Part shown: positions 3,378 through 43,996 of the stretch, piece after piece
Layout: each line of letters opens with the position of its first letter
Position numbering within the stretch: position 1 is the stretch's first letter
Source of the DNA: Rhodamnia argentea
Taxonomy: Eukaryota > Streptophyta > Magnoliopsida > Myrtales > Myrtaceae
Reading direction: 5' to 3'
Length of the DNA: 64,000 bases
NCBI RefSeq assembly: GCF_020921035.1
Contig: NC_063160.1
Span: 12,234,095-12,298,094, forward strand
Translations under genes and position numbers: made by a program
Notes under the pieces: model-generated
Seen by the model: only the letters and a program-made list of their open reading frames with translations
What the model was told of the DNA's origin: nothing
The model's database searches: none

Positions 3378-5369
3378 ATGTTCCGCAAGCATTTCTTTTC
3401 TGCTGGAACTGGCAGCCTGTTCAACGCCTTAAACCAGCAGACTCGCTTATTTTCTCGTGACCCTTTCCCTAGCAAGGTCTCGCACTACCTTTATAAAGCC
3501 AGAGTTATTGATTCCATCCGGCTTGCGCTTCAATCGAATTCCCAGAGTTCTCTTATCACTCTCTTAAGTGACCGGCTCTTGGACTCGTTTGTAGTCACTC
3601 ACGCTCTCCGTTCTGCTCCTTCTGCTGATTCTGCACTCTCAGTTATTGACATTCTTAAATCAAATGCGAATTTTAGTCACACGCAAGGTACCATTTACGC
3701 CCTGGCCAACATTTTGGCCAGATCCGGTCGAAGAGAGGAACTTGACGCTTTGGTTGATGCCATCAACGCCAGGAGCTTTAAAAATGTTCTGGTTAGCCAT
3801 ATGAACCTTATGCAGTGGTTTGCAGCAATTGGAGACCTCGACTCAGTTCTTGATACTTGGGATAATTATAGAGGGTTGGACAGACATGTGTGCACAGAAT
3901 CGTATAACATAGTCATGCGCCTATATGCAGAAAAGGGTGAAGATTCCAGGGCTGTGGAGATATTTCATCGGATGATTGTGGAAGGTGCAAACCCTAATTC
4001 TAGGACATATACAACTATTATTGAGCACCTTGCGAATTCTGGGAAGCTGGATGCGGCCTTGGAGGTTTTCAGTGTTTTACCATTGATGAGAATCAAGCGC
4101 ACAACAAAACAGTTCTCAATTTTGGCAGAGGGTCTTGTAAGTGTTCGAAGGTTTGATGAGGTGAAATTTTTACTCAGCAATATGGAAGCTGAAGGTATGT
4201 TGCCTGTTCGAGCTCTGCTTTGCTCGCTGCAACATATGAAAGAGGGAGGATATATTCGTGAGAATGATGAAATTCTTTCTGACATGTTGCCGGATGATAG
4301 AATAAAAAGTGTCGAGTATTTTGTAGATGATACAGAAGACGATGATGATGAGGCTGAAGCCGAGGAGGAGGATAACGTTGCTTGTGATGTCAACAAGGTC
4401 AATGGGGTCAGATTGAAACCATGGCTAGACCCTAGAGCTTTGGCAAATGCCTTGCAGAGTTGGAGCCCCAATGATGTTTTGGAATTGGAGAATGCAAAGT
4501 TTGTTTGGACAACTCGCTTGGTTTGCAAAGTCCTTAGGAATTTCAAATCTCCAGGGGCAGCTTGGAACTTTTTCTGCTGGGTTGCTTGCCAACCAGGGTT
4601 TACTCATGATGTTTACACAGTGCAGAGAATGATGACCCTTTTAGCGTGACATGGTCATGTCCAATTGGTAAATCAGGTGATGGATAAAATCAGACAGGAG
4701 GGACTAAAGCTTCCTTTCAGTACCATTAAATTGGTTATCGACTTCTGTGGCGTTTCCAAAGATCCTGATGCTGCTTTGAAGATTTTTCGTCACAATCGAA
4801 CTCTCTGTGGTTCTATCTCAAAGTTTAAGCTGATGGTTCTATATTCATCATTGTTACGAACATTGACCAAGTGCGGTAGGTGCCCTGATGCTCTTGAGGT
4901 GCTTGATGAAATGATTTTAAATGGCATTTGCCCAGATATTCAAACTTTTTCTGGTTTGATGGATCATTTTGCGAAGCAAGGAGACATCAAGAACGTGCAG
5001 AAGATCTTTGGAATGGTTAGGCAGAGCGGTATCGAGCCAGACACTTACATGTTTAAGGTTTTGATTCATGGTTATTGCAAGTGTGACAGAGCTGCTCTTG
5101 CTTTGAGGGTGTTCGAGGACATGAGACACTCAAAACTACTTCCTGACTCTTCCACGAAGGAGTTGCTGGTGAAAAGTCTTTGGAAGGAAGGCAGGAGGAG
5201 AGAGGCTGCGATGGTGGAAGAAAGTTGTGAGGAGATAAATGAATCTCTTCCTATTGCTTTACGTGGTCATATATGGACTGTGAGCTCAGCCAACCTCACT
5301 CAAGTTTATAACGTCTATGCAAGTACTTTTACATCAAGCTGTGATCCAACAGCAAATGGGGAGGGCTAG
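3378..5369 (+). pseudogene. PPR protein, copy 1, interrupted by a TGA
   Basis: Same pentatricopeptide-repeat gene as at 20,173-22,164. The frame is open for 423 codons, then meets TGA at 4,647-4,649, where copy 2 has CGA (Arg). The next codon but one bases also differ (CAT against CGT). Both changes fit deamination of methylated CpG. After the stop the same frame continues open to the normal end at 5,369, so the lesion is young and single. A truncated 423-residue product keeps the N-terminal targeting region, the first PPR motifs and the acidic stretch, but loses the C-terminal repeats. Stop readthrough or sequencing error are alternatives. Confidence 0.88.
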
Positions 5370-7252: not shown

Positions 7253-8128
7253 ATGGCCATCTTTCGTTCCTCCCCAAAACATTTACTTCTTCTGCATTTC
7301 TTCGTCTTCATCATCTCCGTCACAACTCAACCACTTCCTAGCCCGAGAGCCAACTTCTCATCCTCTGCCAACTCGCTGAGCTCATGCCCATCATATGTCG
7401 CCTACATCGCGCAAGGACCCGAATTCATCGACCTTGGAAGCATCTCCGACCTGTTTGGTGTCTGCCGTTTATCCATCTCGCAGGCGAGCAACCTGGCTTC
7501 TGAAGATGACCCTTTGTACCCCGGCCAGCTTTTGCTCATTCCGATCACGTGCGGCTGCAGTGGCAGCAGTTTCTTCGCCAACATAACCTATCAGATCAAG
7601 AAAGGTGACAGTTACTTCCTGGTCTCGACGAAGGCATTTGAGAACCTCACGAACTGGCAAGTCGAAGAGGAAATGAACCCGGGGATCAATCCAACTCTCC
7701 TGAAGATTGGAACCCAAGTCACTATTCCTCTCTACTGTAAGTGCCCGGCAAAAGCGGACTCGGAGGCTGGCTTCAACTTTCTTGTTACTTATGTATGGCA
7801 GCCCGGAGATGCACTTTCATCAGTGGCCAAAAAGTTCAACGCGACACCTGGCGATATTGTTAAGGAAAACAAAGGAGTCAATCTTACTGCGTCTGTCGGT
7901 CATCCTGTCCTCATACCAGTATCACAATTGCCAGCTCTTTCTCAACCACTGAATGCTCCTCCGAAGAGAAAAGAATCCAAGCATGAGTGGGTTATTGTAG
8001 CTTTAAGCAGTGTAGCAGCAGCTATTTTGGTCACTGGGTTAGCGGTTTCGCTAGTCTATGTTCGCCGTTTAAGGACTAAGAAACTCATGATCAGTCGAGA
8101 CATCGAGTTTGACGAGAATGCCGCCTAA
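7253..8128 (+). pseudogene. NFP/NFR5-type LysM receptor, kinase lost, fused to copia
   Basis: Residues 1-273 match the intact receptor at 24,092: signal peptide (about 1-25), three LysM modules with CGC and CKC motifs, and the transmembrane helix (about 249-268) ending in YVRRL. After base 8,071 the sequence switches to copia polyprotein and adds 18 residues ending in FDENAA before TAA. The whole kinase domain is gone. The reading frame is open, so a 291-residue membrane-anchored LysM protein with a foreign tail is possible if the transcript is stable. It also carries Cys37Ser, replacing a cysteine conserved in NFR5-like ectodomains, and a new Cys in the FGVCRL segment. Either a dead copy or a decoy-type receptor. 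Confidence 0.9.
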
Positions 8129-10278
8129 AACTAGGAGAACGAGAAGATCGAGAAGAAGTATGTCACCTTGCCTAACATACCACTTGCTCGTGAGGAGTCA
8201 ACAACACAAGAAGAAGGTGAAGCATCAGACTCCACCACTCACGACGTAACACCCCCATCCTCTCCGAGAGCAATGAAAGAAGAATCTACTCCAGATTCTC
8301 CAATACTAAGGGTAAAAACCCTTAGAAATCTATGACATGCAACTTTTCTGCTTTAGAACCAGAAAACCATGAAGAGGCGTCCAACGAAGAAGTTTGGATA
8401 AAAGCCATGGAGGAAGAGATCAAGATTATCGAGAAAAATGAAGCTTGGGAGCTCGCCGATGCCTCGGAGACAAAGAACTGATTGGCATCAAGTGGGTCTA
8501 CAAGACGAAACTCAATGCCGATGGATCAATCCAAAAGCATAAAGCAAGGTTTGTGGGGAAAGGATATTTGCAACAACCAGGTATCGACTATACTAAAACT
8601 TTCGGTCCTGTTGCATTCATGCTCTTATAGCTCTAGCGGCACGGAAAGAATGGAAGATCCATCAACTAGATATAAAATCAACATTCTTAAATGGATATCT
8701 TCAAGAAGAAATATATATGGAACAACCACAGGATTTTATCGTCAAAGGCCAAGAAGAAAAAGTGCTTAAAGCACAAGAAGGCCCTTTAAGGGTTAAAGCA
8801 GGCACAACGAGCATGGTATAGTATAATTGACGAACACTTCACCAAGCAAGGATTCAAAAGGAGCATAAGCAAGCCGACGCTCTACATCAAGACCCAAGGT
8901 AAGTTCGACACTCTCGTCATCTCTCTATAATTAGATGATCTCATATATATATATAGGAAATAATGAAAAGATGATTCAAGAGTTCAAAGAAGAAATGATG
9001 AAGACATTCGAGATGACGGACTTGGGCTTGATGCACTACTTCCTCGGCATTGAAGTCGACCAAAATAAAAGGATTTTCATTTCACAAAAGAAATTCAAGA
9101 TGGATTATTACAAATCAATTACAACACCGCTCATGACAAATGAAAAACTACTAAAGGAAGATGGAGCAAAAATAGCTGACCTCTCCCTCTACATAAGTCC
9201 GATTGGCGGTCTACTATATCTCACTGCCACACAACCAGATATCACGTACACGACAAGTCTACTGTCACGGTTCATGCAGAGTTCGAGACAAATTGGAGCT
9301 GCCAAGAGAATTCTAAGATACTTACGAGGAACTACATATTATGGCATTTGGTATCGGCCAAGTGCAACGACTAAGCTCATCGACTACACCGACAGTGATT
9401 GGGTAGGTTACGCCGATGATAGGAGGAGCACTACCGACTATGCATTCACATTTTGTTTTGAAATATTCTCGTGGGCATCCAAAAAACGAGAGTCGGTGGC
9501 ACAATCTATCGCGGAAGCTGAATACGTCACCTCTGCTACAACTATGAGTCATGCAATATGGCTTCGGAGAATTCTAGAAGACATTGGAGAAGCACAGACG
9601 AAATCGACTTCAATATTTTGTGACAACAAGTCCGCAATTACTATATCAAAGAACCTTGTCTTCCACGGAAGAACCAAACATATTGATAATCACTTCATAC
9701 GAGAAGTGCAAAATAATGGGGAGATCGAAATCAAATATTGCAAGACCGAAGATTAAGTTGCCGACATATTCACTAAAGCACTACCACCAGCAAAGTTCGA
9801 GGCGCTACGAAGTCACGAAATTGGATCAAGGAGGAGTGTTGATTTATGATCCATTTTCTAGTAGAGTTCATTTACTAGAAGAGTAGAGAAAGGGCCTAGC
9901 GAGGGACAGCTAGTGGCTAGAAAAGTCAAAAGAAAAAATGCAAAATAAAAAAACAAGTCTTCAGGCGTAGAATTGTCTAGAGTTTGGATAAAAGTCAATG
10001 AAGCTTATCTTTTTTTTTTTTGGTCCAATGAAGCTTATCTCTTGAACAAAAGAAAGTCGGTGATATGCCAATAAATAGGACTTAGAAAACGTCCATCTTG
10101 GAATAAGAAAAAACCAACAAAAAGCTCTCCTTCTCCTTTTGCAATACTCAAGAAACTAATAAAAGTTTTTATTCCCCTTGTTCCCTTGTACTCCCTTGCC
10201 GACAATATTTCTCATATTCCCATCTTTGTTTCTTTCCTCAATCATAAACTAGCTTATAAACCAAAAACCTAACCCCCA
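8072..10278 (+). mobile_element. Ty1/copia retrotransposon, 5'-truncated, degenerate
   Basis: Starts inside the integrase-RT linker (KKLMISRD, FDENAA), then shows reverse transcriptase pieces ([20 protein letters not shown] around 8,480-8,570; HQLDIKSTFLNGYLQEEIYM around 8,660-8,720), a decayed catalytic LDD box near 8,930, and a long RT/RNase H frame at 8,935-9,756 (YFLGIEVDQ, DSDWVGYADDRRST, SIAEAEY, FCDNKSA, TKHIDNHFIRE). After a stop the usual VADIFTKALP follows. Several stops and frameshifts make it non-functional. The 5' LTR, gag, protease and most of integrase are missing. It joins the NFP gene at 8,071/8,072 and ends in a 3' LTR. Confidence 0.93.
9837..10278 (+). repeat. 3' LTR of the copia element, with polypurine tract
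   Basis: A purine run 'aaggaggag' immediately precedes TGTTG at 9,837, as expected for a copia polypurine tract and LTR start. The LTR ends CCCCCA at about 10,278, giving TG..CA termini and about 442 bp. It contains an AT-rich TATA-like stretch near 10,068 and an AATAAA-like signal near 10,157. The next bases are DA1-like coding sequence. Confidence 0.75.
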
Positions 10279-10521
10279 GAGGTGGAAGAAGGCCTCTGTG
10301 AAGTCATAGCTCATCTGTGGTTGGAGTCTCAAATCTCGTCTAAGTCTGCAAGTCACAAGCACTTCGAGAAGAGGCTTGCTGAGTATCTCAAGTACAACAC
10401 CAAGTCGCGAACATCACATCCTTATGGAACTGGATATCGACAGACAAAGAGGGTGATTGGCATGTACGGCCTCAAAGGAACGATCGACTACATCCATATG
10501 ATAGATGCATTTCCCCGATGA
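10279..10521 (+). pseudogene. DA1-like exon 11 fragment (third copy)
   Basis: About 80 codons homologous to the last exon of the DA1-like genes: EGLCEVIAHLWLESQ, FEKRLAEYLK, a YPYG-like HPYGTGYRQ and GLKGTIDYIHM before TGA at 10,519-10,521. It lacks the first few residues of exon 11 (the GYxNLS part), which are replaced by the LTR. The sequence is clearly more diverged than copies 1 and 2 are from each other, so it is a separate, older paralogue broken by the copia insertion. No upstream exons remain here. Confidence 0.85.
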
Positions 10522-11972
10522 GTTGTCCCGAAGCTGGTATCTCCAGCTATAGGAACACAAGAAGGCAGTGGTTCTTTGAGTTCAGGAGTATGTTAGCCAT
10601 GTGACGATTATTGAAGGCAATGTTCAGCAGTTTCATACGTATCATCTGCTAAAAATGTGACAAACTTGATAGCTGACAAACCTTGTTGGTAACAAAATTT
10701 CGACCCCCTTTTGTTTGGTCAGAAACACGCTGGTTACGAAAAATTTTATGAGAACACGAACAGTTACCACTTGTTTTAAATTGCAAACTATTTCAATGGT
10801 TCATCGACATTTATTTAGGTAGCTTATCAATATGTTAAAACTTGTCACTTTCATTAAAAATTATCGACTCTTATTTGAGTTCATTCGTGAACATTACTTT
10901 TCATTGTTTCGAAATGACCAATTGTTCTAATAACTTGCCAACATTTAGTTGTTCAATTCACCAACGCATTACCCACCTGAATTTTCCAAATGGTCTAAGT
11001 TAGAAAATTCAAGATTCGAGAGCCCCGCTCGTTGCGAGTCTCTTTTCTCAACCAGAAATAATAATAATTACCTAAGTGTCCTTAGCAGCTCAATCTCATG
11101 TAGAAATTAAGAGCATTGCGTTTCGTCATAATTTGTCAATAGATTAAGAATCGATTCTTAGGTCTACTCCAGCACAAAAATAACAAAAAGCATAAAAAAA
11201 TTTGCATGTAAGGTCAACAGCTATTGGCGCTTCCAGTGGTAGTTCTCTCATGAAGGGTCAACAGTCAAGTTGGTGACTGAAGAGTATTATGTCTCCTGCT
11301 AAATCTTAAGGACGTTTATGGAGATATATACGTTGGGGAAATTCAAAAGTTTCAAGGTTGTTAAGGAACATGTATTACCTTGAATGGCTTGTAGTCAAAG
11401 AATCTGTCGTCGAATATTTTTTTACTATGAACATGCATGGTCTGGGGGTGGTTGTTTCTTGCAGAGTTAACCTGATGGAAGTTTCGGGATCAAAATCGAC
11501 CAACCCATCGACTCAATCGTGTCTATCGCAACATAATCTGCACCATCATGGTTAACCACCACATGACAGCGAAGGTCTGGCCGAGTCAGTGCTTCCAATT
11601 GCTTGTGAGTTCCTGGACTTTGTAATGGGAAGCAGTCTTCCTATAGTTTTCGAGTTTGTGTAATCAAATCATTTACTAATCGAGGAAAGGGAAAAAACAA
11701 ACAGAAGATAGTACAAACTGAATTACAATAAGAGGTTAGGTATAACTAACGATCATTAGAAAATGATGAAGAACTCTCATGCAGAATATGGTTTTGTTTA
11801 TTGTTCCAGTTCATTACAGAGTTGACTTGATGGAGTTAGACATATGACCAGCACATCAGCAAATATAACAATCTTGAGAAAATTAGAGGAATCTTGTAAT
11901 GTAACCGCTGGTACCACTCTATTAATCTGGATCAGAGTGTGCTCTTCTTTTGTGATAGCGTTTCTTCTCCTT
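10522..11972. other. Intergenic upstream of the full DA1-like gene
   Basis: No gene was recognised. 10,640-10,980 is AT-rich with 'ttggtaa' and 'ttaccac' words similar to those in intron 6 of the next gene. The phrase 'gcagagttaacctgatggaa' near 11,461 recurs in altered form near 11,817, a hint of local duplication in the promoter of the downstream gene. Confidence 0.5.
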
Positions 11973-14900
11973 ATGGGTTGGCTGAAAAGAATTCTCCAGG
12001 GTTCTACTTCCAAATCCAGATGGAGATCTAACGGAAGCTGCTGCGAGGTTGAAGATGGCCGTTCTTGTTCCGATGGGCCCAGCGACGCGGAGGCAATACA
12101 AGAAGTATAAGTCGGGGCTTATTTGTTTCTCTTGTATTCATTTGTTGTTGATTCATGGGTGGTTTATAATGCACAAGAAATATAACTGTGTAAGTTGGGT
12201 GTTGGGGGATTGATAGCTGCAGTAGAGCAGTCTTAAATGATTGTAGAACCTCGATGTGCAGGACGAATCGACAGAGGGCGAGGAAACAGACTATCAAATC
12301 GCCCGCATTGGCTCCTTCTCGGAAGACGGTCTAGGTAAATTGGACTGTGGTTCATGAACCTAGAACTCGTTGCAATCACATTTGAAAAAATTTTAACTTA
12401 GGGGTACAATGCACCTTCAGTAATGCTGATTCGGATGAATGGTGAATCTCGTTCAGCGTACAATCTCTATGGAGCAACATCGACTGAGGACTGGGTTCCA
12501 TACGAAGAACTGAAATGGGATGACGACGAAGATGAACGACCTGCCCAGTCTTTCCAACAAAGTTTGGCTTTCGAATCATACTCCCTGTGGGACATCGCAA
12601 ACATATTCCAACCTTCCCCCTACCTGTTTTATCCCGACAATGGGTACTCGCCTGCATAGTCACTTTTGGTTGTTTCGCTAGTCCTTACCCCAATTTAACA
12701 GGAACGTTGTTTGTGGGAGAAAAGAAAGAAGAAGGTGAGTTTGTTCACAAACAATTCATTAGCTTCCTTCTATACCACAGGCATGCCTTTCTGCATCCAG
12801 AATGCGTCTACCCTTATGCTTCCCATGATTTGCTCACCGGTCACCACGAGGTTTTTGTTTCTGGGGATCACTCTATTTATCAGAATATTGAGAAAGACCA
12901 CCACCTCAACCACGACTACTGGCACCATCCTCGCCCAATATGTTTTGTTTGTGGGCAACCTGTAAGATTTTTGGTTTTTCCGGCAACTCTTCCTCAAGCA
13001 GAATCTATGAACTGGATACTTTTAGATATTTGTACTTTTTATGTGATCAACCAAAGTATAGTTTCTCTAAATCTCCTGTTTTTCCCTTGCTTTATCCTGG
13101 TTTCAGATCCCAGTGGCTGCAAATGGCCGTCTTCTGTTCCGTCAACATCCTTTTTGGCGACAAAAGTATTGTCTTTCGCATAAGACAGATGGGACGCCTC
13201 GTTGCTGTGGTTGCAAAAGATTGGAGGTAGGAGTCCTTTCAATTAGATATGTCTTGTTGGTTTGTAAACAATTCCAAGCATCTAGGGATGGCATTAAAGC
13301 AAAAACACATGAAATGAACGTCTATGAACTTTATCCTAATGGACAATGTGGTAGCTGAACTTTCGAATTATTCAATGCGATTCATAAACTTTATCTTAAT
13401 GTGTAATGTGGTCCATAAACCTTTAATCTATTCACCGTAGTCCATGAACTTTTGGTACACGTTCAATTTAGTTCCTAAACTACATGAAAGTGTTCAATGT
13501 TATCATTCCATTAATTGAAGTTCATAGATAATATTGGCCTCCTTTATATAATTCAGGGATTAAACTGAATAGGTAACAAAAGTTCATGAACCACATTGAA
13601 TAATTTAAAAGTTTAACAACGATATTGCACATTGGGTTAAAGTTCATGGACCACATTGAATATGTAAATGTTGCTGAAAAAATGAGGTCTAAGTATAATG
13701 TCATAAAGTTGGAGGTCTGGGCCCTCTCAAGCCCCCTCTAAATCCGCCCATGCAGACATCATGAACATATTAAACTACCAACTAGTTTTGGATCATCTAT
13801 TCTTGTTTGAGTTTATCGACATTTAATTTATTTTAAATTGACCACTTTTTATTAGTCTTGGTTAGAAACCCCTTAGATTTATTAGTTTCTTTAGAGATCA
13901 CCAACCTTAAGTAGTATGACTTACAACATTTTTCCCATTTAATTGCGACCTAATATTGGTTACCAACATTCATTTGATTTACTTACCGTTATCCATTTAG
14001 TGCTGTTTTGTACAAACTTTACTTGCACTTGTTGGCAATGCTTTACCAACTCCTTTCAGTAATAATTCCCACAATTAGACCAATTTATTAAGATTTCTAT
14101 TATTAAGATACCAACTAGTTTTGTATTACCAACTCTCATTAGACTTTTACCAATTTTTTAAATTCTCTTATATTTTACCAACCTTTAGTTATCCTTATAA
14201 ACTACACTTTACTTTACTTTAAATGACTTATCAATTTTATCCGAGTGCATATAACATAATTCTAGGTTACGAACTCCCATTTAATTAGTCATCAATGTTT
14301 ACTTTTTTAATTTACCAACTACTCTTTGGTTAACATAATCGATGGTTAGTCACTTTAACAAATGTTGGTGATCTCATATAATAGTAGTAAGTAGTAAGAC
14401 ATCGGCGGGAAAGCAAGTTAAAGCTGGTAAAAGACGAGAATCTTTTTTGTCAAATATAAGAGAAGCTGGCAAATAAGACAAATAAAAGTGGTTGCTTAAT
14501 AGAAAAGTCGGTAAGTTAACAAAAGCAAATCGTCGTTCGTAAGAGTTGTTGATTAGAATTAGTTGTTAACTTAATCGAATAAAATTCGGCTGGTAAAAGA
14601 CAAGAGAATCTTTTTTGTCAAACATAAGAGAAGTTGGCAAATAAGACAAATAAAAGTGGTTGATTAATAGAAAAGTCGGTAAGTTAACAAAAACAAATCG
14701 TTGTTCGTAAGAGTTGTTGATTAGAATTAGTTGTTAACTTAATCGAATAAAATTCAATTGTTCGTAAGAGTTGTTGATTAGAAAGTACTGTCGTGCACAT
14801 AATAGAGATGGAACACCTTCTTGTTGTGGTTGCCAAAGATTGAAGGTAGGTTCCCTCCTCAATTAGTTGCCATAATATCATCCACTAATTAATCATTCTC

Positions 14901-17900
14901 TTAGCAAATGTATAGTAGAGAGTGTTGTTAAGGGATGAGTGGAATCATAAGTCAAAGCATTAATTCTCATGTTTGGAAATAATTACTCATCATTCTTCAT
15001 ATTTCGGGGTTAGAAACGTCATTGTTGTAGATAACACTTCCTAATAATGATACTTAATATCCTAAAGTTGAATGCTTTTTAGGTTAAAAATTTCTAGTAA
15101 TACTTCCTTACACTTTGGACTATAAAGAAATTGGATGAATATGTAAATGTTTTTTGAAAGCTGCGCTATAAGGCACAATTTCATCTAAATCCGCCCAAGC
15201 AAACATCACATAAATGTGAATATTTGTAAAATATCGGACCAACAGGACAAATCAAATCAACGAAGTAAACCTCTAAAACCTACTAAATGCGTAAAGTGCT
15301 GAAATTCATGCTTTTGTTCCGGAAGACTATTGGACAAAAAAAAAAAAAAAAGGCCAACACTTTCCAACACTTACATGAAATTACCAATTTGTTTACTGTT
15401 TGCAAATACTAATTTGTGTACTAACTTACTTTCATTCGCATAAGTTGTTAAATTATATTTGTCGACTCTTTTTAGATATTACCAACCTAAATTAACAAGA
15501 CACACCAACTTTTTATCTCATTTAGTTACCACATAATATTGAGTTACCACATCTTATTTGAGTTACTTACCACTATTCATTTGGGTTTTTCTATTTTATT
15601 TTATTTTTGAGCTTTTTATTCTCATGCAATCTTTTAGCTGTATTATTTAACAATACCTTAAATTGACCAACTCTTTTTAGAAAACAGTTACCTTAATTAG
15701 ACTGATTTACTAACTTTTTTCTAATTAAGTTACCAAGTAGTTTTGTGTTATTAACTCTCATTGAACTTATTTGCCTCGACCAAAAAAAAAAAAACCTTAT
15801 TTACCAAGTTTTCTTTTCCTTATTTCTATTTTTGAAGAATTTTCATTTAACTACGCCTAACTATAATTTAAGCAATTTATTAAGTTTTATCCGAGTGAGG
15901 GACTAAATATGTGTTACCACTCTCTTTTGTTAGTTATTAATACGCATTTGTTTTTTCCAAATTTACCAACTATTCTATAGGGCAACTCAATTAAGAAAGA
16001 AGTCGTTTTGTCACTGTGATAAAGATTAGTAATATCATATAATATTTGGTACATATAAAACTGTACTAGCAAAGGTAAATGTAATTCGTATTATATAAGG
16101 TAAGTTTCTATTGTCATATACAAGAGAACTTGGTAAATTACCTCAAATAAGTGTTAGTAATGCAAAAATAGTTGGTAAATTAATCCTAGAAAATGATTTG
16201 TAAGGCAGGCAAATAAAAGTGGTAACTTGGTAGATAGTTGGCAAGATTAAAAATATTCCTTAATAATCATTCATAAGCAACTCAAATGAGGGTTGGTAAC
16301 CCAAAATTAGTTGGTAACTTAACCAAAGAAAAATTGGCTAGTTGCACAAAAAAGTTTGGTAATTTAATATAGTAGTCGGTAAGTTTAAGGCGTTGTTAAA
16401 AAGGGTAAAAAAAAATTGGTAAAGGATAGAATATTTGGTCATAGATAAGGCAAAATTTTGGATTATGTGATTAAAAAAATGAGTTTATGACCCGTTTTGA
16501 CAACCCGATCCATTATATATGAATTAAAAAATGAGTTTATAACCCATTTTGACAAATCTAATTTTGCCTATTGACCGGTTGCACAACATTTTGAATTATT
16601 TGAGATAAAAAAAGGTCCTCACATCAATAGCATATTTCTATGCATTTCTTTGTCAAAAGAGAAAAGCAATTAGGTTAAATGCGTTCATGTTCACCCACAA
16701 TCTGTTTTAGCTTGCACAGACTCCCCAGCAACTCACAGAGTTGGCTAATGCTTATGAAACATTGTGCAGCCTGGAGGATCAACATATTCAACCCTCGGCG
16801 GCGGTCGGAGGTTATGCCCAGAATGCCGCAGCTCCGCAATGATGGACAATCACGCATTTAAAGCTCTAGAACGTGAAATGCGTGAATTTTACGAATCCTT
16901 AGGCATGAAAGTCCACCAGCGAACGATTCCCTTGTACTTGGTGAACGAGGAAGAGATGAAGGAATTCAAAGCACCGGATGAAAAGAACGTAAGATGAAGT
17001 TCAGCTTGTAATTATCGCCAAACATTTTAATCTGGCGCTTGGTTAGAGACTCGTTTACCCTATCGCTCCGTAAAATAAAACATAGTAGTCCGCTTTCTAG
17101 CATTATTCTACGGCGTCATCAATAGAATTCCACACAATGCTGAGCTGAGAAATTGCAAAGAAAATTTCCATCCCACGCTCCTAATCTTGAGTTTTCGCTC
17201 CGCACTTGATAGGGGCATCATCGATCGGACGAGAACGGGACACGTGGAAAGACAAGGTCGTCCGTCGATCGTATTTGTACCGTAAGTGCTTCTCCGCACT
17301 TGAGATTTTTTCTCATTTTTCACATCGTTTGCTTGTGTCAATCCAGCGACGGAGAGGTAACCTTTTCTTTCTGTTTGGTCTCTTTGAATCTTTAAGGCTG
17401 TGGAAGGTAGACCACATACGCTAGTCGCCCACTCTAAAGTTGTATCCATAAGAGTGTTGTATGGTCTGCCGAGGTACTTCTCTCCCCTCCCCTTTTCTTA
17501 CCAATTACAATCTCAAAGTAAGGTCTCTCATTAGAAGAAAATGAAAAGATTCGGATTGAGACTAGTTATCTTTGATGAGAAACTCCCCTAGAAAATTCGA
17601 TGTTTTTGTGCGGGTTGCTCACGGGGCAAATCCTCGCTCATGAGATGATGCACGCGTGGCACGTACTCGAAATCGACGGTTCGTCTCTTGATTATGATGT
17701 GGTTTCTACCTCTAATTTTGCATCTAACGAAAAAGTGATAATACTGCAATTGACTCCATAATAAGATGTTTAGAAAATGACACAAATGGTCCTTAAATTT
17801 TGGCTCAATATGCGTTGTGATCCTTAAACTTTTAATTTGATCAAAATAGTCCATGAACTTTAGCCTAATGTGCAATGTGGTCCATAAACTTTTAATTTGT

Positions 17901-18544
17901 TCAATATGATCTCGAATTATTAAAACATGTTCAACTTAGTCTTCAAATTATAAGAAAATGTCCATTGTCGTTATTGAATTTAAATTAATAAAATGACTAC
18001 ATTGAACATCTTCCTATAGTTTAGAGGTTGGGTTGAATATGTTTCAAAAGCTCAGAGACCGTATTGGTCAAATTAAAAATTCAGGGACCACATTGCATAT
18101 TAGGCTAAAGTTCGGGGACCATATTAGTAAAATTAAAAATTTAGGGATCACATTATATGTTAGGCCAAAATTCGTGAATTATTTATGTCATTATCCCTAA
18201 GATGTTCTGATCTTTCCTGCGGGACATTACGGTTTTGAACTAGAAAAGTTTTCATATACTTGACAGGTTATCACAATTTGAGTCTTGAGGTCAAAGAAGG
18301 CCTTTGTCAAGTTCTGGCTCACATGTGGTTGGGTTCTCAAATCCGGTCCATGTCTAAGAGCAAATCTCCGCCATCTCCATTGCTCGACTTCCGTAAAACG
18401 CTCACCAAGTTTCTTCGGCGTAGAATCGAATCGAGAACCGATTACCCTTACGGCCTTGGATTTCAACTAGTGAAGAGGGAGACAGACATGCATGGCCTCA
18501 AGGGCACGCTCGATCACATACGTATGACCGGGAGGCTTTCCTAG
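11973..18544 (+). CDS. DA1-like LIM/zinc-peptidase protein, 11 exons, 489 aa
   Basis: Exons: 11973-12104, 12262-12334, 12421-12643, 12702-12734, 12781-12961, 13107-13226, 16770-16988, 17213-17281, 17397-17473, 17614-17678, 18267-18544. They sum to 1,470 nt with all phases consistent. The start [11 protein letters not shown] matches the DA1 N-terminus. [16 protein letters not shown] is the ubiquitin-interacting-motif region. The LIM region covers about residues 143-275 ([31 protein letters not shown]). [22 protein letters not shown] (HEMMH at 385-389) and [11 protein letters not shown] mark the peptidase. DA1 proteins are ubiquitin-activated peptidases restricting organ growth; function here is inferred. 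Oddities: the first LIM half lost most zinc ligands, the exon 10 acceptor is GG not AG, and intron 6 is 3.5 kb. Other introns have good GT..AG sites. It may be a recent pseudogene. Confidence 0.75.
13293..13700. repeat. Inverted-arm repeat, family B (DA1-like intron 6)
   Basis: Contains 'ggtccataaacctttaatct' in the left half and the inverted form 'agttcatggaccacattgaa' in the right half. It is the same family as the element in intron 10. No coding potential. Confidence 0.6.
13768..14781. repeat. Foldback-like AT-rich block 1 in intron 6
   Basis: The left part (13,768-14,335) is full of 'accaac' and 'ttacca' words; the right part (14,360-14,781) has the complements 'gttggta' and 'ggtaag'. 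This strand switch suggests a large, diverged inverted repeat. The right part includes a 166-bp tandem duplication. Confidence 0.5.
14423..14756. repeat. 166-bp tandem duplication
   Basis: The unit starting 'gctggtaaaagac' at 14,423 is repeated at 14,589 with few differences. A third, partial copy of its end ('gttcgtaagagttgttgatt') follows from about 14,757. It lies just before the exon 6 remnant. Confidence 0.85.
14783..14845 (+). pseudogene. Exon 6 remnant of another DA1-like gene
   Basis: Twenty-one codons read [20 protein letters not shown] plus Lys and are followed by a GTAGGT donor. This is homologous to the 3' half of exon 6 of the host gene ([26 protein letters not shown] donor at 13,227). 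The 5' half with HPFW is missing and no acceptor precedes it. It sits inside intron 6, as expected if the gene formed by recombination between two tandem DA1-like genes. Confidence 0.8.
15340..16460. repeat. Foldback-like AT-rich block 2 in intron 6
   Basis: 15,360-15,990 is rich in 'ttaccaa' and 'accaac'; 16,020-16,460 is rich in 'ttggtaa' and 'ggtaaat'. The layout is the same as block 1, suggesting a second copy of one foldback family. A-runs near 15,338 and 15,781. No coding signal. Confidence 0.45.
17763..18200. repeat. Inverted-arm repeat, family B (intron 10, copy 2)
   Basis: Direct counterpart of the element at 962-1402, with a few substitutions and single-base indels. It was therefore present before the segmental duplication. 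Confidence 0.65.
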
Positions 18545-20172
18545 ATGATCTCTACATACTGTTGAGGAATTCTTCTGATGATTGATTGTGTATTCCCGAT
18601 CTCTCTGTCCACCTACAAACCAAACACATGAGGTGAGTTTCGCCCAGCAATAAGATGAATATTATGGGTGGAATAAAATGCTTAAACATTGGCCAGCTTC
18701 CTTGTGATTCCGTTCTCTTTCGTATTTTGTTGAAATTTATTCAATTCACCCGAAAGTCGCTTGAGTCATCATCCTTTGCGTGCTGTCTTAAAGAAGGGAG
18801 ATGCACGTGTGGATTATCAATATATCACGCGGATGAGCAACAACTGTTGAATTGTATTGTTTCCTGACGAGGTACCGATGATTATTAGGGGCGTTCAGAT
18901 AGGCGCAATATCGGTAGGTGGGTCTGGACCACGGGTGTTAAACAGGTCATAACTTTCAATCCAAGAAGAGTTACGGGATCCATAATACCACATCAACGAG
19001 CTCCTTCCGAGGGAAATGTTATGGCCGAAAGGGTTTTCCTTTTGCAATCTTTTCGAGTCTCAAAATCCATCGTTCAGACAGCTACATTTTATGCTATGTT
19101 TTAGCCCTTTATTAATATTTCGAACTTCTTAACTGCTTATGGGTATTTTTAGGTTTTCTCATGTCATCCAAAGTTTTCATAGTACTGGCTTGTCCTTTTC
19201 GGATTATCCGAAAGATTATGCCATTATTTTGCTAAGCAAAGACTAAGAAATTTTTTCTGAATTGCACCCGTAAATGTTTTGCACGTTTGTGCGTGTTTCG
19301 GATTGATTTTGTTTGGGTTTAACAAACGGTTTTTGCTGCGTCAACTGATATTAAAAGCCAGCAAAACTCGCTCGAAGAAAACACACCCTTATTATAAGAG
19401 GCACCCTTTTATAGTATCCGTTACGACAACTTCTTACACATTTTCCTAGATATTTCTTGACAAATATATCCATAAATATTTCTCTCTCCATATACTCCTA
19501 TGGTCTTTTTGAAATGTCTTAGGATAAATATCCAGATTGGATAGAGTAATCTAGAAAAATGCTAGATTTCTAAAGAAGAGAGGGTGGGGCGTCTCTTCTT
19601 TCAGTGTGACCTTGCAAAGTCCCCACCTTTACTGCTCCTAGTCTCGGCTCGTAAGCCCTCCGGGCCTTCGGAAGCTCCAAACCGTCTTCTCCATGTTTCG
19701 TCCTGAAGAGATATCATTGTGGAATTCTATTTTGTCACATTCTCATAGCCTTGTCATGGGTCGTCTCTCTTCTTTCCTCTCCTAAAGGGATGATGATTTA
19801 CGAGTGTTTGTGAAAGTTCACGCAAAATGGTGCCCGCACCGAAGGTGTTTGATGCTTTGCCTGACGTCTGATTCCTCTCGTTTTGCCTAAATTACCTTCA
19901 TGACGTTTGACGCCGTGCGAAAGCATTGAAAGGCTCTTTACTGCGCCCCGTTTCTGCGTTCTCCCTCTCTTCCCTGTTGTGGGTTTCGTGTTGCTGTGTG
20001 TGTCTGAGTTGAGACGTTTATCGGCACACCAGGCAGGTGTTTGATGAATCCAGTCAATTCATCCTTCGCTTGTAAAGTTGGGTCTCGGTGTCGTTTTGGC
20101 CCGGACCAGTCTCGACAGTCAGGAGCGAGTTTCATCTGTTATGCATTCGACATTTGAATTCGACAAAAGCCC
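18545..20172. other. Intergenic, DA1-like 3' flank and PPR 5' flank, copy 2
   Basis: Counterpart of 1,746-3,377. No gene recognised. The last few hundred bases form the leader of the PPR gene. Confidence 0.6.
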
Positions 20173-22164
20173 ATGTTCCGCAAGCATTTCTTTTCTACTG
20201 GAACTGGCAGCCTCTTCAACGCCTTAAACCAGCAGACTCGCTTATTTTCTCGTGACCCTTTCCCTAGCAAGGTCTCGCACTACCTTTATAGAGCCAGAGT
20301 TATTGATTCCATCCGGCTTGCGCTTCGATCGAATTCCCAGAGTTCTCTTACCACTCTCTTAAATGACCGGCTCGTGGACTCGTTTGTAGTCACTCACGCT
20401 CTCCGTTCTGCTCCTTCTGCTGATTCTGCACTCTCAGTTATTGACATTCTTAAATCAAATGCGAATTTTAGTCACACGCAAGGTACCATTTATGCCCTGG
20501 CCGACATTTTGGCCAGATCCAGTCGAAGAGAGGAACTTGATGCTTTGGTTGATGCCATCAATGCCAGGAGCTTTAAAAATGTTCGGGTTAGCCATATGAA
20601 CCTTATGCAGTGGTATGCAGCAATTGGAGACCTCGACTCAGTTCTTGATACTTGGGATAATTATAGAGGGTTGGACAGACATGTGTGCACAGAATCGTAT
20701 AACATAGTCATGCGCCTATATGCAGAAAAGGGTGAAGATTCCAGGGCTGTGGAGATGTTTCATCGGATGATTGTGGAAGGTGCAAACCCTAATTCTAGGA
20801 CATATACAACTATTATTGAGCACCTTGTGAATTCTGGGAAGCTGGATGCGGCCTTGGAGGTTTTCAGTGTTTTACCATTGATGAGAATCAAGCGCACAAC
20901 GAAACAGTTCTCAATTTTGGCAGAGGGTCTTGTAAGTGTTCGAAGGTTTGATGAGGTGAAATTTTTACTCAGCAATATGGAAGCTGAAGGTATGTTGCCT
21001 GTTCGAGCTCTGCTTTGCTCGCTGCAACATATGAAAGAGGGAGGATATATTCGTGAGAATGATGAAATTCTTTCTGACATGTTGCCGGATGATAGAATAA
21101 AAAGTGTCGAGTATTTTGTAGATGATACAGAAGACGATGATGATGAGGCTGAAGCCGAGGAGGAGGATAACGTTGCTTGTGATGTCAACAAGGTCAATGG
21201 GGTCAGATTGAAACCATGGCTAGACCCTAGAGCTTTGGCAAATGCCTTGCAGAGTTGGAGCCCCAATGATGTTTTGGAATTGGAGAATGCAAAGTTTGTT
21301 TGGACAACTCGCTTGGTTTGCAAAGTCCTTAGGAATTTCAAATCTCCAGGGGCAGCTTGGAACTTTTTCTGCTGGGTTGCTTGCCAACCAGGGTTTACTC
21401 ATGATGTTTACACAGTGCAGAGAATGATGACCCTTTTAGCACGACGTGGTCATGTCCAATTGGTAAATCAGGTGATGGATAAAATCAGACAGGAGGGACT
21501 AAAGCTTCCTTTCAGTACCATTAAATTGGTTATCGACTTCTGTGGCGTTTCGAAAGATCCTGATGCTGCTTTGAAGATTTTTCGTCACAATCGAACTCTC
21601 TGTGGTTCTATCTCAAAGTTTAAGCTGATGGTTCTATATTCATCATTGTTACGAACATTGACCAAGTGCAGTAGGTGCCCTGATGCTCTTGAGGTGCTTG
21701 ATGAAATGATTTTAAATGGCATTTGCCCAGATATTCAAACTTTTTCTGGTTTGATGGATCATTTTGCGAAGCAAGGAGACATCAAGAATGTGCAGAAGAT
21801 CTTTGGAATGGTTAGGCAGAGCGGTATCGAGCCAGACACTTACATGTTTAAGGTTTTGATTCATGGTTATTGCAAGTGTGACAGAGCTGCTCTTGCTTTG
21901 AGGGTGTTTGAGGACATGAGAAACTCAAAACTACTTCCTGACTCTTCCACAAAGGAGTTGCTGGTGAAAAGTCTTTGGAAGGAAGGCAGGAGGAGAGAGG
22001 CTGCGATGGTGGAAGAAAGTTGTGAGGAGATAAATGAATCTCTTCCTATTGCTTTACGTGGTCATATATGGACTGTGAGCTCAGCCAACCTCACTCAAGT
22101 TTATAACATCTATGCAAGTACTTTTACATCAAGCTGTGATCCAACAGCAAATGGGGAGGGCTAG
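20173..22164 (+). CDS. Pentatricopeptide-repeat protein, 663 aa, intact
   Basis: Single-exon PPR protein. PPR proteins bind organellar RNA and act in its editing, splicing or stability. The first about 30 residues (MFRKHFFS, several Arg, Ser and Phe, few acids) fit a mitochondrial targeting peptide. Clear PPR units include ESYNIVMRLYAEKGEDSRAV, RTYTTIIEHLVNSGKLDAAL, YSSLLRTLTKCSRCPDALEV, QTFSGLMDHFAKQGDIKNVQ and YMFKVLIHGYCKCDRAALAL. A very acidic patch (DDTEDDDDEAEAEEED) separates an N-terminal from a C-terminal repeat block. There is no E, DYW or SMR tail, so it is P-type. The RNA target and orthologue cannot be named from the sequence alone. The start is the first ATG of the frame. Confidence 0.92.
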   Translation: MFRKHFFSTGTGSLFNALNQQTRLFSRDPFPSKVSHYLYRARVIDSIRLALRSNSQSSLTTLLNDRLVDSFVVTHALRSAPSADSALSVIDILKSNANFSHTQGTIYALADILARSSRREELDALVDAINARSFKNVRVSHMNLMQWYAAIGDLDSVLDTWDNYRGLDRHVCTESYNIVMRLYAEKGEDSRAVEMFHRMIVEGANPNSRTYTTIIEHLVNSGKLDAALEVFSVLPLMRIKRTTKQFSILAEGLVSVRRFDEVKFLLSNMEAEGMLPVRALLCSLQHMKEGGYIRENDEILSDMLPDDRIKSVEYFVDDTEDDDDEAEAEEEDNVACDVNKVNGVRLKPWLDPRALANALQSWSPNDVLELENAKFVWTTRLVCKVLRNFKSPGAAWNFFCWVACQPGFTHDVYTVQRMMTLLARRGHVQLVNQVMDKIRQEGLKLPFSTIKLVIDFCGVSKDPDAALKIFRHNRTLCGSISKFKLMVLYSSLLRTLTKCSRCPDALEVLDEMILNGICPDIQTFSGLMDHFAKQGDIKNVQKIFGMVRQSGIEPDTYMFKVLIHGYCKCDRAALALRVFEDMRNSKLLPDSSTKELLVKSLWKEGRRREAAMVEESCEEINESLPIALRGHIWTVSSANLTQVYNIYASTFTSSCDPTANGEG

Positions 22165-24091
22165 TATCTGAAAACTGTAATTGTTACTTCCATTAGCCCC
22201 TTGACCAAGTTTAGTTCTGTCAAGTCCTAGCTGACTCACTTTAGTCTGTCACATAATGGGGGTGCAGATGCAAGCAAAATGTAATCTAATTTCTTTTTAA
22301 TTCATTTTTTTTTTTCGGATGCAAGCCTAATGTAATTTCATTTCTTTCTAATCATATTTTGTTTGAGGGAAACACCGATGTCTGTCCTCCTGCATATTGC
22401 AGTTTGTATCTAGTGCCAAAATCTACATGTAGTATTACTTTATTTGGTCAAATATACTCAATATTAAAAGAAATTATTTGAAGTCTGTTTACCACTTACT
22501 GTTAGTTTACATACTGTATCATTCTTTCTGTTTGGTCTTTATTCATCTACAGTGTTCATGTCAATCTGAGATAGACTGGAGATGTGGTCATCTGTCTATG
22601 AATGATTCAATGGTCTATGTTAGAAGATCTTGTTGTGTTTCGCAAATTGGCTCACATTATCTACGGAGACCAAGTCTCGATTTGTTTGTACCTTTCAGGA
22701 TATCAGAAAACACTCTACTTCAACCAGCTGAATCATCTTCCCCTGCATGCTTGGTATGTTTATGGGGATTTGTTCGAAGGATTTGTTTGTGAGTATGGAA
22801 AAGCTATTTTCTGCTTGGCCCCTTCACAATGGCTCTTTCTGATCAATCCTATTTGCTTGATTGATAGTAGACGAAACGATAATGAGACGGCTGTTCTGCT
22901 GTTCTGTCAGACTATCGTACACAATCAATTTTCAGGCGGGAGCTTTTGGCCTGGAGCTTGGTTATTCATTCCTTGTTTATCTTTTCATGTTATTCTTAAT
23001 TATTGTTGCGTTGGACCATATAAACACAGTTTTCTGTTTTGGCAGATAAAAATGTCAGATGGATTGCAAGTAAGCTCATTCGACAGACCTTCTGTTCAAC
23101 TGTCTAGTAACATCATGCCGCCTTCGGGCCTTCGAGGTTAGTCCATGGAAACCGTGTCCCCGAATCAAATTGTTAGGTTGTCAACAAGAGGTCAATCTAT
23201 GGCATCGTAGGATGAGACAGTGCAGAATTTATATGGAGCCATTTACAGTCTACAGTGAGGAACCTCACATTGATTTGCTAACTTAATCTGTTAGCCCAGC
23301 TGAAGAGAGGCAGCTAATACTTTGTCTCTACGGATTAAGAAATTGACTCAAGTTCAATTTCTAGATGACAAAAATTGGGGAAGTATAATTCTTCGCAAGT
23401 CTCATAGCGAAATTTGGAAACCAAAGTCTAGGCAACTACGTTCTTCTATTCTGTGCAGTCATTTCATCAGTCCTTCCGCAAATGGTAATAAATCCAACTT
23501 TGCGAGCGATCCTTCCGTGTATGATATCCCTCTTAGTTACCGATCCTAGATCATATTCTGTGGGTTTCTTTGTGGTTTTTGAATTTTTCTTAAGTAAGAT
23601 TTTGTGGCTGCAAGAGTTTTGTTCTGTTGTTTGGCTGACTCTCTATGCGTGTGATAAATATGCAGGATGATCTATTTCGCCGGCCGAACTGGGGTTCCCT
23701 CATCTTATATTAATCTGATGCTCATCGCATATTCTATTTCGAAAGCAACCACCAGCCAAAAACAAATACAGGTTAAATTGCCGCCTATTACTTTCTACCA
23801 TACACATATATTGCCGCCTGTTATTTTCTATTCACTCCTCTCCACGCATAAAATCTGTCCCAAGGGAAAAAATTCTATTCGCTAAAGCTTATTTCATCAT
23901 TGGATCCAAATGAGAATTGTTCAATTCAAAGCCAAAACAAGAACCTACTTCCAGGCTTTATTAGGAGAAGAGTTCCCCAATTCCAAGCGAAAGATTCACA
24001 CTAGAATGGGTTTTTGGCTTTTTCCAACCTCGGAGCTTCACCCTCATAAACTCAGGTTTGAGAGGCTCAAGCCATCCAAGCTGATAGCCAA
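22165..24091. other. Intergenic between PPR and NFP, copy 2
   Basis: No supported gene. It holds the PPR 3' UTR and the NFP 5' region. A 179-codon open frame at 22,602-23,141 is broken in copy 1 and has no family signature. Intron-like 'ctacag' and 'ttggcag' sites could mean spliced UTR sequence. Confidence 0.55.
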
Positions 24092-25936
24092 ATGGCCATC
24101 TTTCGTTCCTCCCCAAAACATTTACTTCTTCTGCATTTCTTCGTCTTCATCATCTCCGTCACAACTCAACCACTTCCTAGCCCGAGAGCCAACTTCTCGT
24201 GCTCCGCCAACTCGCTGAGCTCGTGCCCATCATATGTGGCCTACATCGTGCAAGGACCCGAATTCATCGACCTTGGAAGCATCTCTGACCTGTTTGGTGT
24301 CAGCCGTTTATCCATCTCGCAGGCGAGCAACCTGGCTTCTGAAGATGACCCTTTGTACCCCGGCCAGCTTTTGCTCATTCCGATCACGTGCGGCTGCAGT
24401 GGCGGCAGTTTCTTCGCCAACATAACCTATCAGATCAAGAAAGATGACAGTTACTTCCTGGTCTCGACGAAAGCATTTGAGAACCTCACGAACTGGCAAG
24501 TCGAAGAGGAAATGAACCCGGGGATCAATCCAACTCTCCTACAGATTGGGACCCAAGTCACTATTCCTCTCTACTGTAAGTGCCTGGCAAAAGCGGACTC
24601 GGAGGCAGGCTTCAACTTTCTTGTTACTTATGTATGGCAGCCCGGAGATGCACTTTCATCAGTGGCCAAAAAGTTCAACGCGACATCTGGCGATATTGTG
24701 AAGGAAAACAAAGGAGTCAATCTTACTGCGTCTGTAGGTCATCCTGTCCTCATACCAGTATCACAATTGCCAGCTCTTTCTCAACCACTGAATGCTCCTC
24801 CGAAGAGAAAAGAATCCAAGCATGAGTGGATTATTGTAGCTTTAAGCAGTGTAGCAGCAGCTATTTTGGTCACTGCGTTAGCGGTTTCGCTAGTCTATGT
24901 TCGCCGTTTAGGTGGGAAAGCGAACCCGAAGATTCTGAATTGGAATGCTTCCTGTTGGGAGGTCAGAAATCTCGTAAAAACTAAGGAGTTCCCTAAAGAA
25001 GGGAAATCTGAGTCATCCAAGACGAAGGTCATCCAAGATAAATTACTTCCCAGCATTTCGGACTACTTGAGCATTCCGATCATGTATGGGGCTAAAGAGA
25101 TCATGGAGGCAACGATGAATCTTGATGAGAGTTCTAAGATCAGGGGCTCAGTGTTCCGCGGCACAATCGACGGGAAAGTTTTCGCCGTGAAAACAGAAAC
25201 TATGGGCAAAAACATGGAGGAGCTAAAGATTCTACAGAGAGTAAACCATGCGAATCTGATAAAGTTACTGGGTGTTTCGTCAGATGCGGGCGGCAACTTC
25301 TTTATGGTATATGAGTACGCTGAAAACGGTTCGCTCGATAAGTGGCTGTGTCAGAGGCCTTCGTCTTCTTCAGAGTCTGTCAACTTCCTCACTTGGATTC
25401 AGAGGTTGGGCATCGCTTTCGATGTCGCCAATGGCCTCCAATACCTTCATGAGCATACTCAACCGAGCATCGTCCACGGAGATATCAGAGCAAGCAACAT
25501 TCTTCTGGACTCCAATTTCAAGGCCAAGATATCAAACTTCTCCAAGGCCATACCAGCTACAAGTGCTGCGATGTTGAAAGTTGATATTTATGCTTTTGGG
25601 TTACATTTGCTTGAGTTACTTTCGGGGAAGCGGGCCATGGGCGTGAGTGAAGTAATGGAGATCTTGGAAGCGGAAGAGAATAGGGAGGAGAGGTTGATGG
25701 AATGGATGGATCCGGACTTGGGGAGCTTTTATCCGATCCATGACGCGCTGAGCCTAGCAACCTTGGCCCAGGCGTGCACAGCAGAGGAATCTTCCGTGAG
25801 GCCAAGCATGGCGGAGATTGCATTTAATCTCTGCATGCTCGCCCAGTCGTCTTCGGTGGCGTTGGAAAGTTCTTGGACGACAACAATAGAAGCAGATGAG
25901 AGCGTTCAAGTTATCATTCCGGCTACTGCTCGCTGA
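24092..25936 (+). CDS. NFP/NFR5-like: NFP/NFR5-type LysM receptor-like pseudokinase, 614 aa
   Basis: Intronless LysM receptor of the LYR-I clade, which in legumes recognises Nod factors with an active LYK partner and elsewhere is linked to mycorrhizal signalling. Order: signal peptide (1-25), ectodomain with Cys37, Cys45, CGC and CKC, three LysM modules (about 45-225), transmembrane helix (about 249-268), kinase-like domain. Family-specific strings include SCPSYVAY, ENLTNW, TYVWQPGD, LIPVSQLP, GVSSDAGGNFFMVYEYAENG, EENREERLMEWMDPDLGSFY and the C-terminal ATAR. The kinase keeps the VAIK-type Lys (about 366) but HRD is HGD (462-464), DFG is NFS (482-484), and the activation loop is almost absent, as in NFR5. 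It is therefore a pseudokinase. The orthology call comes from remembered family sequences, not from alignment. Confidence 0.92.
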   Translation: MAIFRSSPKHLLLLHFFVFIISVTTQPLPSPRANFSCSANSLSSCPSYVAYIVQGPEFIDLGSISDLFGVSRLSISQASNLASEDDPLYPGQLLLIPITCGCSGGSFFANITYQIKKDDSYFLVSTKAFENLTNWQVEEEMNPGINPTLLQIGTQVTIPLYCKCLAKADSEAGFNFLVTYVWQPGDALSSVAKKFNATSGDIVKENKGVNLTASVGHPVLIPVSQLPALSQPLNAPPKRKESKHEWIIVALSSVAAAILVTALAVSLVYVRRLGGKANPKILNWNASCWEVRNLVKTKEFPKEGKSESSKTKVIQDKLLPSISDYLSIPIMYGAKEIMEATMNLDESSKIRGSVFRGTIDGKVFAVKTETMGKNMEELKILQRVNHANLIKLLGVSSDAGGNFFMVYEYAENGSLDKWLCQRPSSSSESVNFLTWIQRLGIAFDVANGLQYLHEHTQPSIVHGDIRASNILLDSNFKAKISNFSKAIPATSAAMLKVDIYAFGLHLLELLSGKRAMGVSEVMEILEAEENREERLMEWMDPDLGSFYPIHDALSLATLAQACTAEESSVRPSMAEIAFNLCMLAQSSSVALESSWTTTIEADESVQVIIPATAR

Positions 25937-28190: not shown

Positions 28191-28568
28191 TGTTCTTTGA
28201 GCTGGGAATGATCTGAAGGGAAGGTTGTGACAGGTTCTCTGTGTTGGGTTTGAATATAATTCCAATCTGCTGTGGGGTTTTTGGAAGCTCTATGAGCATT
28301 GACTTCTTCTAAAGGGAAGAGAGACAACTTACGTATGGGGTTGGACCTAACCATCTGCATATGGTGCTCTACTTTATTCCCACAATTATTGACAGTCAAA
28401 AAGAGAAGGCAGATTAAAAAATATTGCACATTGTTGAATCTTTCTTCTTCCAATCACTGGTGGTGCCACGGAAGATCGTTCAATACACGCAAAACACGAA
28501 ATTGGTCGCAAAAACTCTGATATACAACCGGAAAGCAGGATGAATCAAAAGTTTCAAAAGTGTTTCCT

Positions 28569-43840: not shown

Positions 43841-43996
43841 AGTCCCAATTCTACCATACACTTTTTTTTTGTCACATACTTTAGGTTTAGCCTCAATTCT
43901 ATCATGATTTTTTTTTGTCTAAAAAAAAATCATGATAGAATTGAGGCTAAACCTAAAGTATGTGACAAAAAAAAAGTGTATGGTAGAATTGGGACT
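43841..43996. repeat. Perfect 76-bp inverted repeat with 4-base loop
   Basis: Bases 43,841-43,916 and 43,921-43,996 are exact reverse complements by eye, including both 9-base T/A runs, with loop GTCT. The arm starts 'agtcccaattctaccataca'. Flanking bases (ending 'cgggggt', starting 'aattct') do not pair or form an obvious target duplication. Confidence 0.93.

Follow-up and report, generated by a model that had tools for sequence, protein, structure and literature searches.

A kinase-less LysM receptor copy with a copia-coded tail at a tandem-duplication breakpoint in Rhodamnia argentea, probably a non-functional by-product

The nearest precedent that we found, a receptor still reported active although a copia-type element has cut it, is Xa21D. 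Like the gene analysed here, this rice LRR receptor kinase is a receptor of the immune type that breaks off after its ectodomain and has a copia-type element at its 3' end. The accessible part of the source presents it as the outcome of an insertion of the copia-like element Retrofit and as being said to give partial resistance (PMC3036077). Within the LysM receptor family itself, NFP-type (LYR-IA) genes of Trema, peach, beech and chestnut were truncated or pseudogenised after duplication, the Trema levigata pseudogene carries an indel and a double stop, and NFP-type pseudogenes occur in several species without nodulation or without arbuscular mycorrhiza, with no mention of a copia junction in the portions of these reports that were available (PMC6207691, PMC7536700). 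A kinase-less protein of this type has also been engineered: MtNFP reduced to residues 1-283, i.e. with nearly all of the intracellular region removed, is described in the available text as reaching the plasma membrane, having no nodulation activity and giving 0/20 cell-death responses with MtLYK3 (PMC3672211). The LYM/LYP proteins (CEBiP, LYM1-3), finally, carry three LysMs and no kinase, but according to the accessible sections of a review they form a separate family, are GPI-anchored and have 3-4 introns in the membrane-side part (PMC6207691). A search of titles and abstract openings for a copia-fused or kinase-less LysM receptor brought up no such fusion, a weak result, as most subscription journals lay outside the search.

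The window analysed here is the whole stretch of 64,000 nucleotides from contig NC_063160.1 of Rhodamnia argentea (positions 12,234,095 to 12,298,094), and its coordinates are used throughout unless C11 or C1 is given. Positions 7253-8128 form a single open frame whose translation has 291 amino acids, residues 1-273 being derived from a receptor and residues 274-291 (18) from copia, followed by TAA. The receptor part is one of three such stubs, which we call B, C and D (D being the one in the window), and E denotes the full-length paralogue.

7253..8071, plus strand: copy D, consisting of the 5' part of a duplicated receptor gene of the NFP type, with probable signal peptide, LysM1-3 and transmembrane helix
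8070..8072, no strand: duplication breakpoint between receptor and copia, with a 2-bp microhomology (TA at 8070-8071)
8072..8128, plus strand: copia tail of 18 codons, read in the frame of the element itself and closed by the stop codon TAA (8126-8128)
8072..10265, plus strand: 5'-truncated, decayed copia fragment, consisting of pol and then a probable 3' LTR that begins near 9837 (this start and the right end were set by eye)

We regard the case as a truncated receptor copy with an element-derived tail within a gene array, and it differs from each of the described systems in a definable way. Unlike Xa21D, the stub retains its transmembrane helix and lies at a tandem-duplication breakpoint inside pol, so that element insertion does not describe its origin; compared with the NFP-type pseudogenes of Trema, peach, beech and chestnut, its break is a duplication breakpoint that was itself amplified. 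With the engineered MtNFP it shares the layout of an ectodomain and a transmembrane helix without a kinase, although that protein was made in the laboratory and has a native ectodomain, and it differs from the LYMs in its NFP-type ectodomain and in what appears to be a transmembrane helix with a basic tail.

Three Pfam models, PF23446, PF23457 and PF23462, match the stub above their curated cut-offs, indicating three NFP-type LysMs, and the scores for LysM1, LysM2 and LysM3 (97.8, 94.3 and 74.9 bits) compare with 90.8, 91.2 and 73.1 bits in E. The closest solved relatives among the PDB matches are 7bax, a LysM type receptor kinase that we take to be Lotus LYS11, and 7au7 (NFP). On the basis of the Pfam subfamily models and these best matches, the stub is classified as NFP/NFR5-type (probably LYR-IA). 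A probable signal peptide was judged by hydropathy only, from the N-terminal hydrophobic stretch (windows 10-11), and a transmembrane-like helix at about residues 245-273 is indicated by 19-residue windows with starts at 245-255 and means of up to 2.5. VRRL and a charged tail come after this helix. The intracellular pseudokinase is absent from the stub and present in E, whose intracellular part has the kinase of Nod-factor receptor 5 as its top PDB match (8s79, E=1.4e-87). A preliminary description of this DNA had given the frame, the junction at 8071/8072 and the 18 retrotransposon residues before the stop correctly, and its account of an NFP-type duplicate that kept LysMs, transmembrane helix and probable signal peptide while losing the kinase agrees with the Pfam and hydropathy results.

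Across the junction the protein reads ...VYVRRL/RTKKLMISRDIEFDENAA-stop. In two unlinked copia copies (L006 and L007) the reading across the homologous point is ...VYNLRTKKLMIxRDVxFDEN..., which places the tail of the fusion in copia's own frame. We take this frame to be that of pol, judging by characteristic motifs and by an RVT_2 match in Pfam to the frame 8935-9753 further down the same fragment. Beyond its stop, a transcript of the fused gene would run into copia, where weak poly(A)-like signals begin at 8272 and the first AATAAA is at 9064, so that a long 3' UTR, and nonsense-mediated decay, are possible.

The junction is the breakpoint of a tandem duplication and not a copia insertion. 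Window positions 1-8071 align to 16796-24910 at 96.2% identity, homology ends at 8071, and the TA at 8070-8071 is common to the junction and both parents. When positions 8000-8200 were searched against the 346.7-Mb genome, at least 22 of at least 26 matches were copia without receptor, starting at window 8069-8075, and among the matches listed one was receptor without copia (E, ending at 8071) and three were receptor plus copia (B at C11:12122674, C at C11:12146864 and D in the window). The 819 receptor bases match four places in the genome, namely B, C, D and E, and because B, C and D have an identical junction, a single event accounts for the three stubs.

Self-comparison of C11:12038095-12298094 (260 kb) resolved four head-to-tail units. 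The first reaches from a point within copia (12060098) to stub B (12122745), the second extends from there to stub C (12146869) and the third to stub D (12242165), including about 71 kb of other sequence; the last unit and the gene that completes it lie in the window:

8072..24910, plus strand: unit 4, the last complete duplication unit, from the copia breakpoint to the receptor breakpoint (16.84 kb), followed by the rest of the full gene E
24092..25936, plus strand: full-length NFP-type receptor gene (copy E, 614 aa) with an NFR5-like intracellular kinase-fold part, at the right end of the array

We propose that about 17 kb, with one end in the pol of an old copia and the other just past the transmembrane helix of an NFP-type gene, was duplicated in tandem, with two non-homologous breakpoints joined through the 2-bp TA microhomology. 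This left a kinase-less stub with 18 copia codons, followed by an unharmed receptor gene, and later unequal exchange within the array probably raised the number of stubs to three, the order of multiplication and exchange being one that we infer. After such a duplication, the source copia should extend further to the left where the array begins, and an unbroken receptor should stand at its right end. Both were found: E is complete, and to the left of 12060098 copia continues for about 210 bp, with another piece of 64 bp beyond, and still reads in the same frame, with stops.

An alternative origin, in which copia inserted straight into the receptor gene and cut it, might be suggested by the fact that copia does adjoin the gene, and the wording of the preliminary description, "created by an in-frame fusion to copia", leaves room for it. 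Yet the junction lies inside pol, away from the LTR ends, the array has the source copia at its left end, and no second receptor half was found beyond copia in the stub units when the 260 kb were searched; the 3' part of the receptor occurs there once, at E, besides a 150-bp match of 70% in the neighbouring LysM receptor gene. With the junction within pol and the source copia visible in the array, we give insertion almost no credence and consider it ruled out as the cause, so that of the earlier wording the in-frame tail stands and any insertion read from it is replaced by a duplication breakpoint. The array could also be an artefact in which haplotype copies were placed side by side by the assembler, a notion to which the 99.8% identity of stubs B and D (2/819 differ) lends some appeal. 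Against it, B and D differ by 1-4.5% in their flanks, insertions and indels vary from unit to unit, and the 260 kb contain no N, and we regard haplotype duplication in the assembly as very improbable.

As a separate observation on the array, the other sequence that splits unit 3 (C11:12150152-12221226, about 71 kb) includes repeated blocks.

The stubs have not remained equivalent to E in their ectodomain. Up to the junction, the proteins encoded by B and D are identical, and relative to E they differ at two positions that involve cysteine:

7361..7363, plus strand: codon 37, a conserved N-terminal ectodomain Cys, here Ser in D (variable base 7362)
7463..7465, plus strand: codon 71, a Cys in B and D where C, E and the C1 paralogue have Ser

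Codon 37 is Ser in B and D and Cys in C, E, the paralogue on C1, 7au7 (MtNFP) and 7bax. Since C, E and the C1 gene have Cys37 and Ser71, B and D are derived at both sites, and their Cys71 is a new cysteine, unpaired or re-paired. Stub D thus has cysteines at 45, 71, 100, 102, 162 and 164, with both CxC pairs present and Cys37 missing, compared with 37, 45, 100, 102, 162 and 164 in E; the NFP-type pattern of CxC pairs plus two N-terminal cysteines is seen in E and lost in stub D. From CERK1-type structures we presume that Cys37 pairs with Cys102, the second cysteine of the first CxC, and Cys71 might replace the lost disulfide partner. In the accessible parts of the literature, the three modules of EPR3 are held by three internal disulfides (PMC7392887), the CxC cysteines of LysM receptors form bridges (PMC6207691), and the function of Medicago NFP depends on ectodomain disulfide bridges (PMC4273610). 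Loss-of-function ectodomain mutants of NFP have been attributed to ER retention in the part of the report available (PMC3672211). These sources deal with the CxC pairs and not with the N-terminal Cys in particular, and the product of B and D, if made, would probably be held in the ER owing to its lost disulfide Cys. The preliminary description had named frame-breaking alleles in other individuals as an observation that would speak against its view; a counterpart exists within this genome, as the sister copy C, which keeps Cys37, has a 44-bp frame-shifting deletion that removes the transmembrane helix and leads to a stop after 260 residues. Copy C could at most be a soluble protein. That the stub is one of three, that a conserved Cys was lost and that a duplication breakpoint was the cause had all gone unnoticed.

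The PPR gene carried along in each unit provides an internal control for how much an open frame means in this array:

3378..5369, plus strand: PPR gene copy in the unit of fused gene D, with an internal stop at codon 424 of the frame in E's unit
20173..22164, plus strand: open PPR gene in the last unit (E)
C11:12118052-12120043 and C11:12142193-12144171: PPR copies in the other two units that end in a stub

PPR is broken in 3/3 stub-ending units and open in the unit of E, unit B having stops at codons 257 and 424, unit C a 13-bp deletion and unit D the stop at 424. With the stop shared by B and D counted once, this amounts to 3 hits per 1992 bp, a rate at which 1.2 disabling hits are expected in three 819-bp stubs, against 1 seen, and at which the probability of zero hits in the B/D lineage is 0.44. 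There is therefore nothing remarkable in B and D having kept their frames open, and we reject the open frame as proof of function, as chance would leave as much.

Branch-specific changes in the stubs were sorted by hand for 31/32 variable sites, leaving aside 7879 (B=C vs D=E) and also the ambiguous site 8037, which lies inside C's deletion and outside the 32-site list; the C-branch count takes in 8006 and 8064, beside or beyond that deletion. The ratios of amino-acid to silent changes were 5:5 for B/D, 4:7 for C, 0:1 for D and 4:5 for E. With a neutral missense share of 0.688, taken from the array's own non-coding changes, the pooled fused branches (9:13) have a deficit of amino-acid changes relative to the non-coding mutation spectrum (P=0.006); the pooled P is 0.0063 as counted, 0.010 with 8037, 0.0019 without 8006 and 8064, and 0.0031 with 7879 taken as silent. 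By themselves, the open copies B and D give 5:6 and P=0.09 (0.14 with 8037), the frame-broken copy C gives P=0.027, and the PPR pseudogenes are near neutral at 32:17, two stops aside (P=0.17). The contrast between stubs and PPR pseudogenes is not significant (Fisher P=0.07; 0.12 with 8037). The deficit hints at constraint on the stub, and it comes largely from the broken copy C. In addition, B and D resemble each other closely, their 2 differences in the stub comparing with 10.8 expected at the PPR rate (P=0.0015) and 8.3 at the adjacent intergenic rate (P=0.011). Their divergence is 4.5% upstream of PPR and 0.24% in the stub, and is higher again in copia.

The likeness of B and D could come from recent gene conversion or from constraint. 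Conflicting site patterns between units, e.g. B=C vs D=E in PPR and its upstream region, point to exchange, and gene conversion can thus explain both the low ratio and the resemblance. Whether the stubs have been kept alike by conversion among themselves or from E, the low ratio then being borrowed from selection on E, is a matter on which we lean towards doubt while regarding it as possible; the dip in B-D divergence relative to both sides fits it, whereas B and D share changes missing from E, which speaks against recent conversion from E over those sites. It is compatible with the by-product reading that we prefer and does not exclude it. Positions 7168-8101, at which B and D differ at 2 sites compared with 1-4.5% in the flanks, resemble a conversion tract over the fused gene.

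Taken as a whole, we read the stub as a truncated, probably non-functional by-product of the duplication that is drifting to loss, and give this a probability of about 0.78. Having neither a juxtamembrane nor a kinase-fold region, the protein would be unable to signal, and as the engineered kinase-less MtNFP is reported to be inactive in nodulation and cell death, the stub could hardly do so; B and D appear to have lost an ectodomain disulfide Cys, and C its membrane anchor as well as its frame. The stub protein could in principle still be being made, and we counted the scarce amino-acid changes, the B-D likeness, the stub LysM scores slightly above those of E and a Cys71 that might stand in for the lost partner against the by-product reading. 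The few amino-acid changes on the pooled fused branches, together with the retained probable signal peptide, LysMs and transmembrane helix, would suit an expressed kinase-less decoy, with B and D at the plasma membrane competing with the full-length receptor for lipo-chitooligosaccharide or for a LYK partner as a natural dominant negative. Such a role would require expression, export in spite of the altered cysteine, and competition. Such a gene would have a duplicated promoter, about 1 kb of upstream DNA being shared with E (about 97% alike, apart from a 53-bp stretch missing in B and D), and a precedent of sorts in the truncated Xa21D. We nevertheless consider a decoy unlikely: Cys37 is gone in B and D, their frame is open no more than chance allows, constraint on these two copies alone is not significant, and the 3' UTR is possibly long, given the position of the first AATAAA and of the weaker signals before it. 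The comparison with receptor-like proteins drawn in the preliminary description holds for the membrane layout, if the gene is expressed, and finds no support as to function. It is more doubtful again that the B/D stub is young, expressed and selected, with the C37/C71 swap re-wiring the disulfides and the dose of the array tuning perception of lipo-chitooligosaccharide or chitin by the full-length receptor.

The locus offers a cleanly resolved birth of a receptor stub with a transposon-coded tail, by a duplication breakpoint and then array multiplication. If expressed, the stub would match in nature what was engineered as kinase-less NFP, and it would offer a means of asking whether clusters of symbiosis and immune receptors readily give rise to ectodomain decoys; otherwise, it is a warning that open copies with signal peptide, LysMs and transmembrane helix can be mis-annotated as receptor-like proteins.

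The full-length gene has changes of its own. E alone carries A53V, G118D, P165L and P199S, the other residue at each of these positions being common to B, C, D and the C1 gene, and it is without about 10 residues of the kinase C-lobe that are present in NFR5 and in the C1 gene; E itself may be relaxing. The C1 gene, a second NFP-type gene with an ectodomain 56% identical (C1:9444639-9445445), has an open 653-codon frame. Another LysM receptor frame lies near it at C1:9437021-9437650, and on C11 a LYK4/5-type gene (window 26253-28289, minus strand) likewise lies close to the NFP-type gene. This arrangement suggests that the receptor pairs on C1 and C11 derive from an old segmental or genome duplication, and the legend of a figure in a review, in the part available, mentions syntenic LYRIA and LYRIII genes (PMC6207691).

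Two further features of the window were noted. The duplication unit contains two diverged, similarly worded exon-like stretches, recognised by eye at 10281-10520 and 1461-1750, one of them directly behind the copia LTR, and we presume a resemblance to the end of a DA1-type peptidase gene. Positions 43840-43997 form an inverted repeat whose two 77-nt arms match perfectly around a loop of 4 nt.
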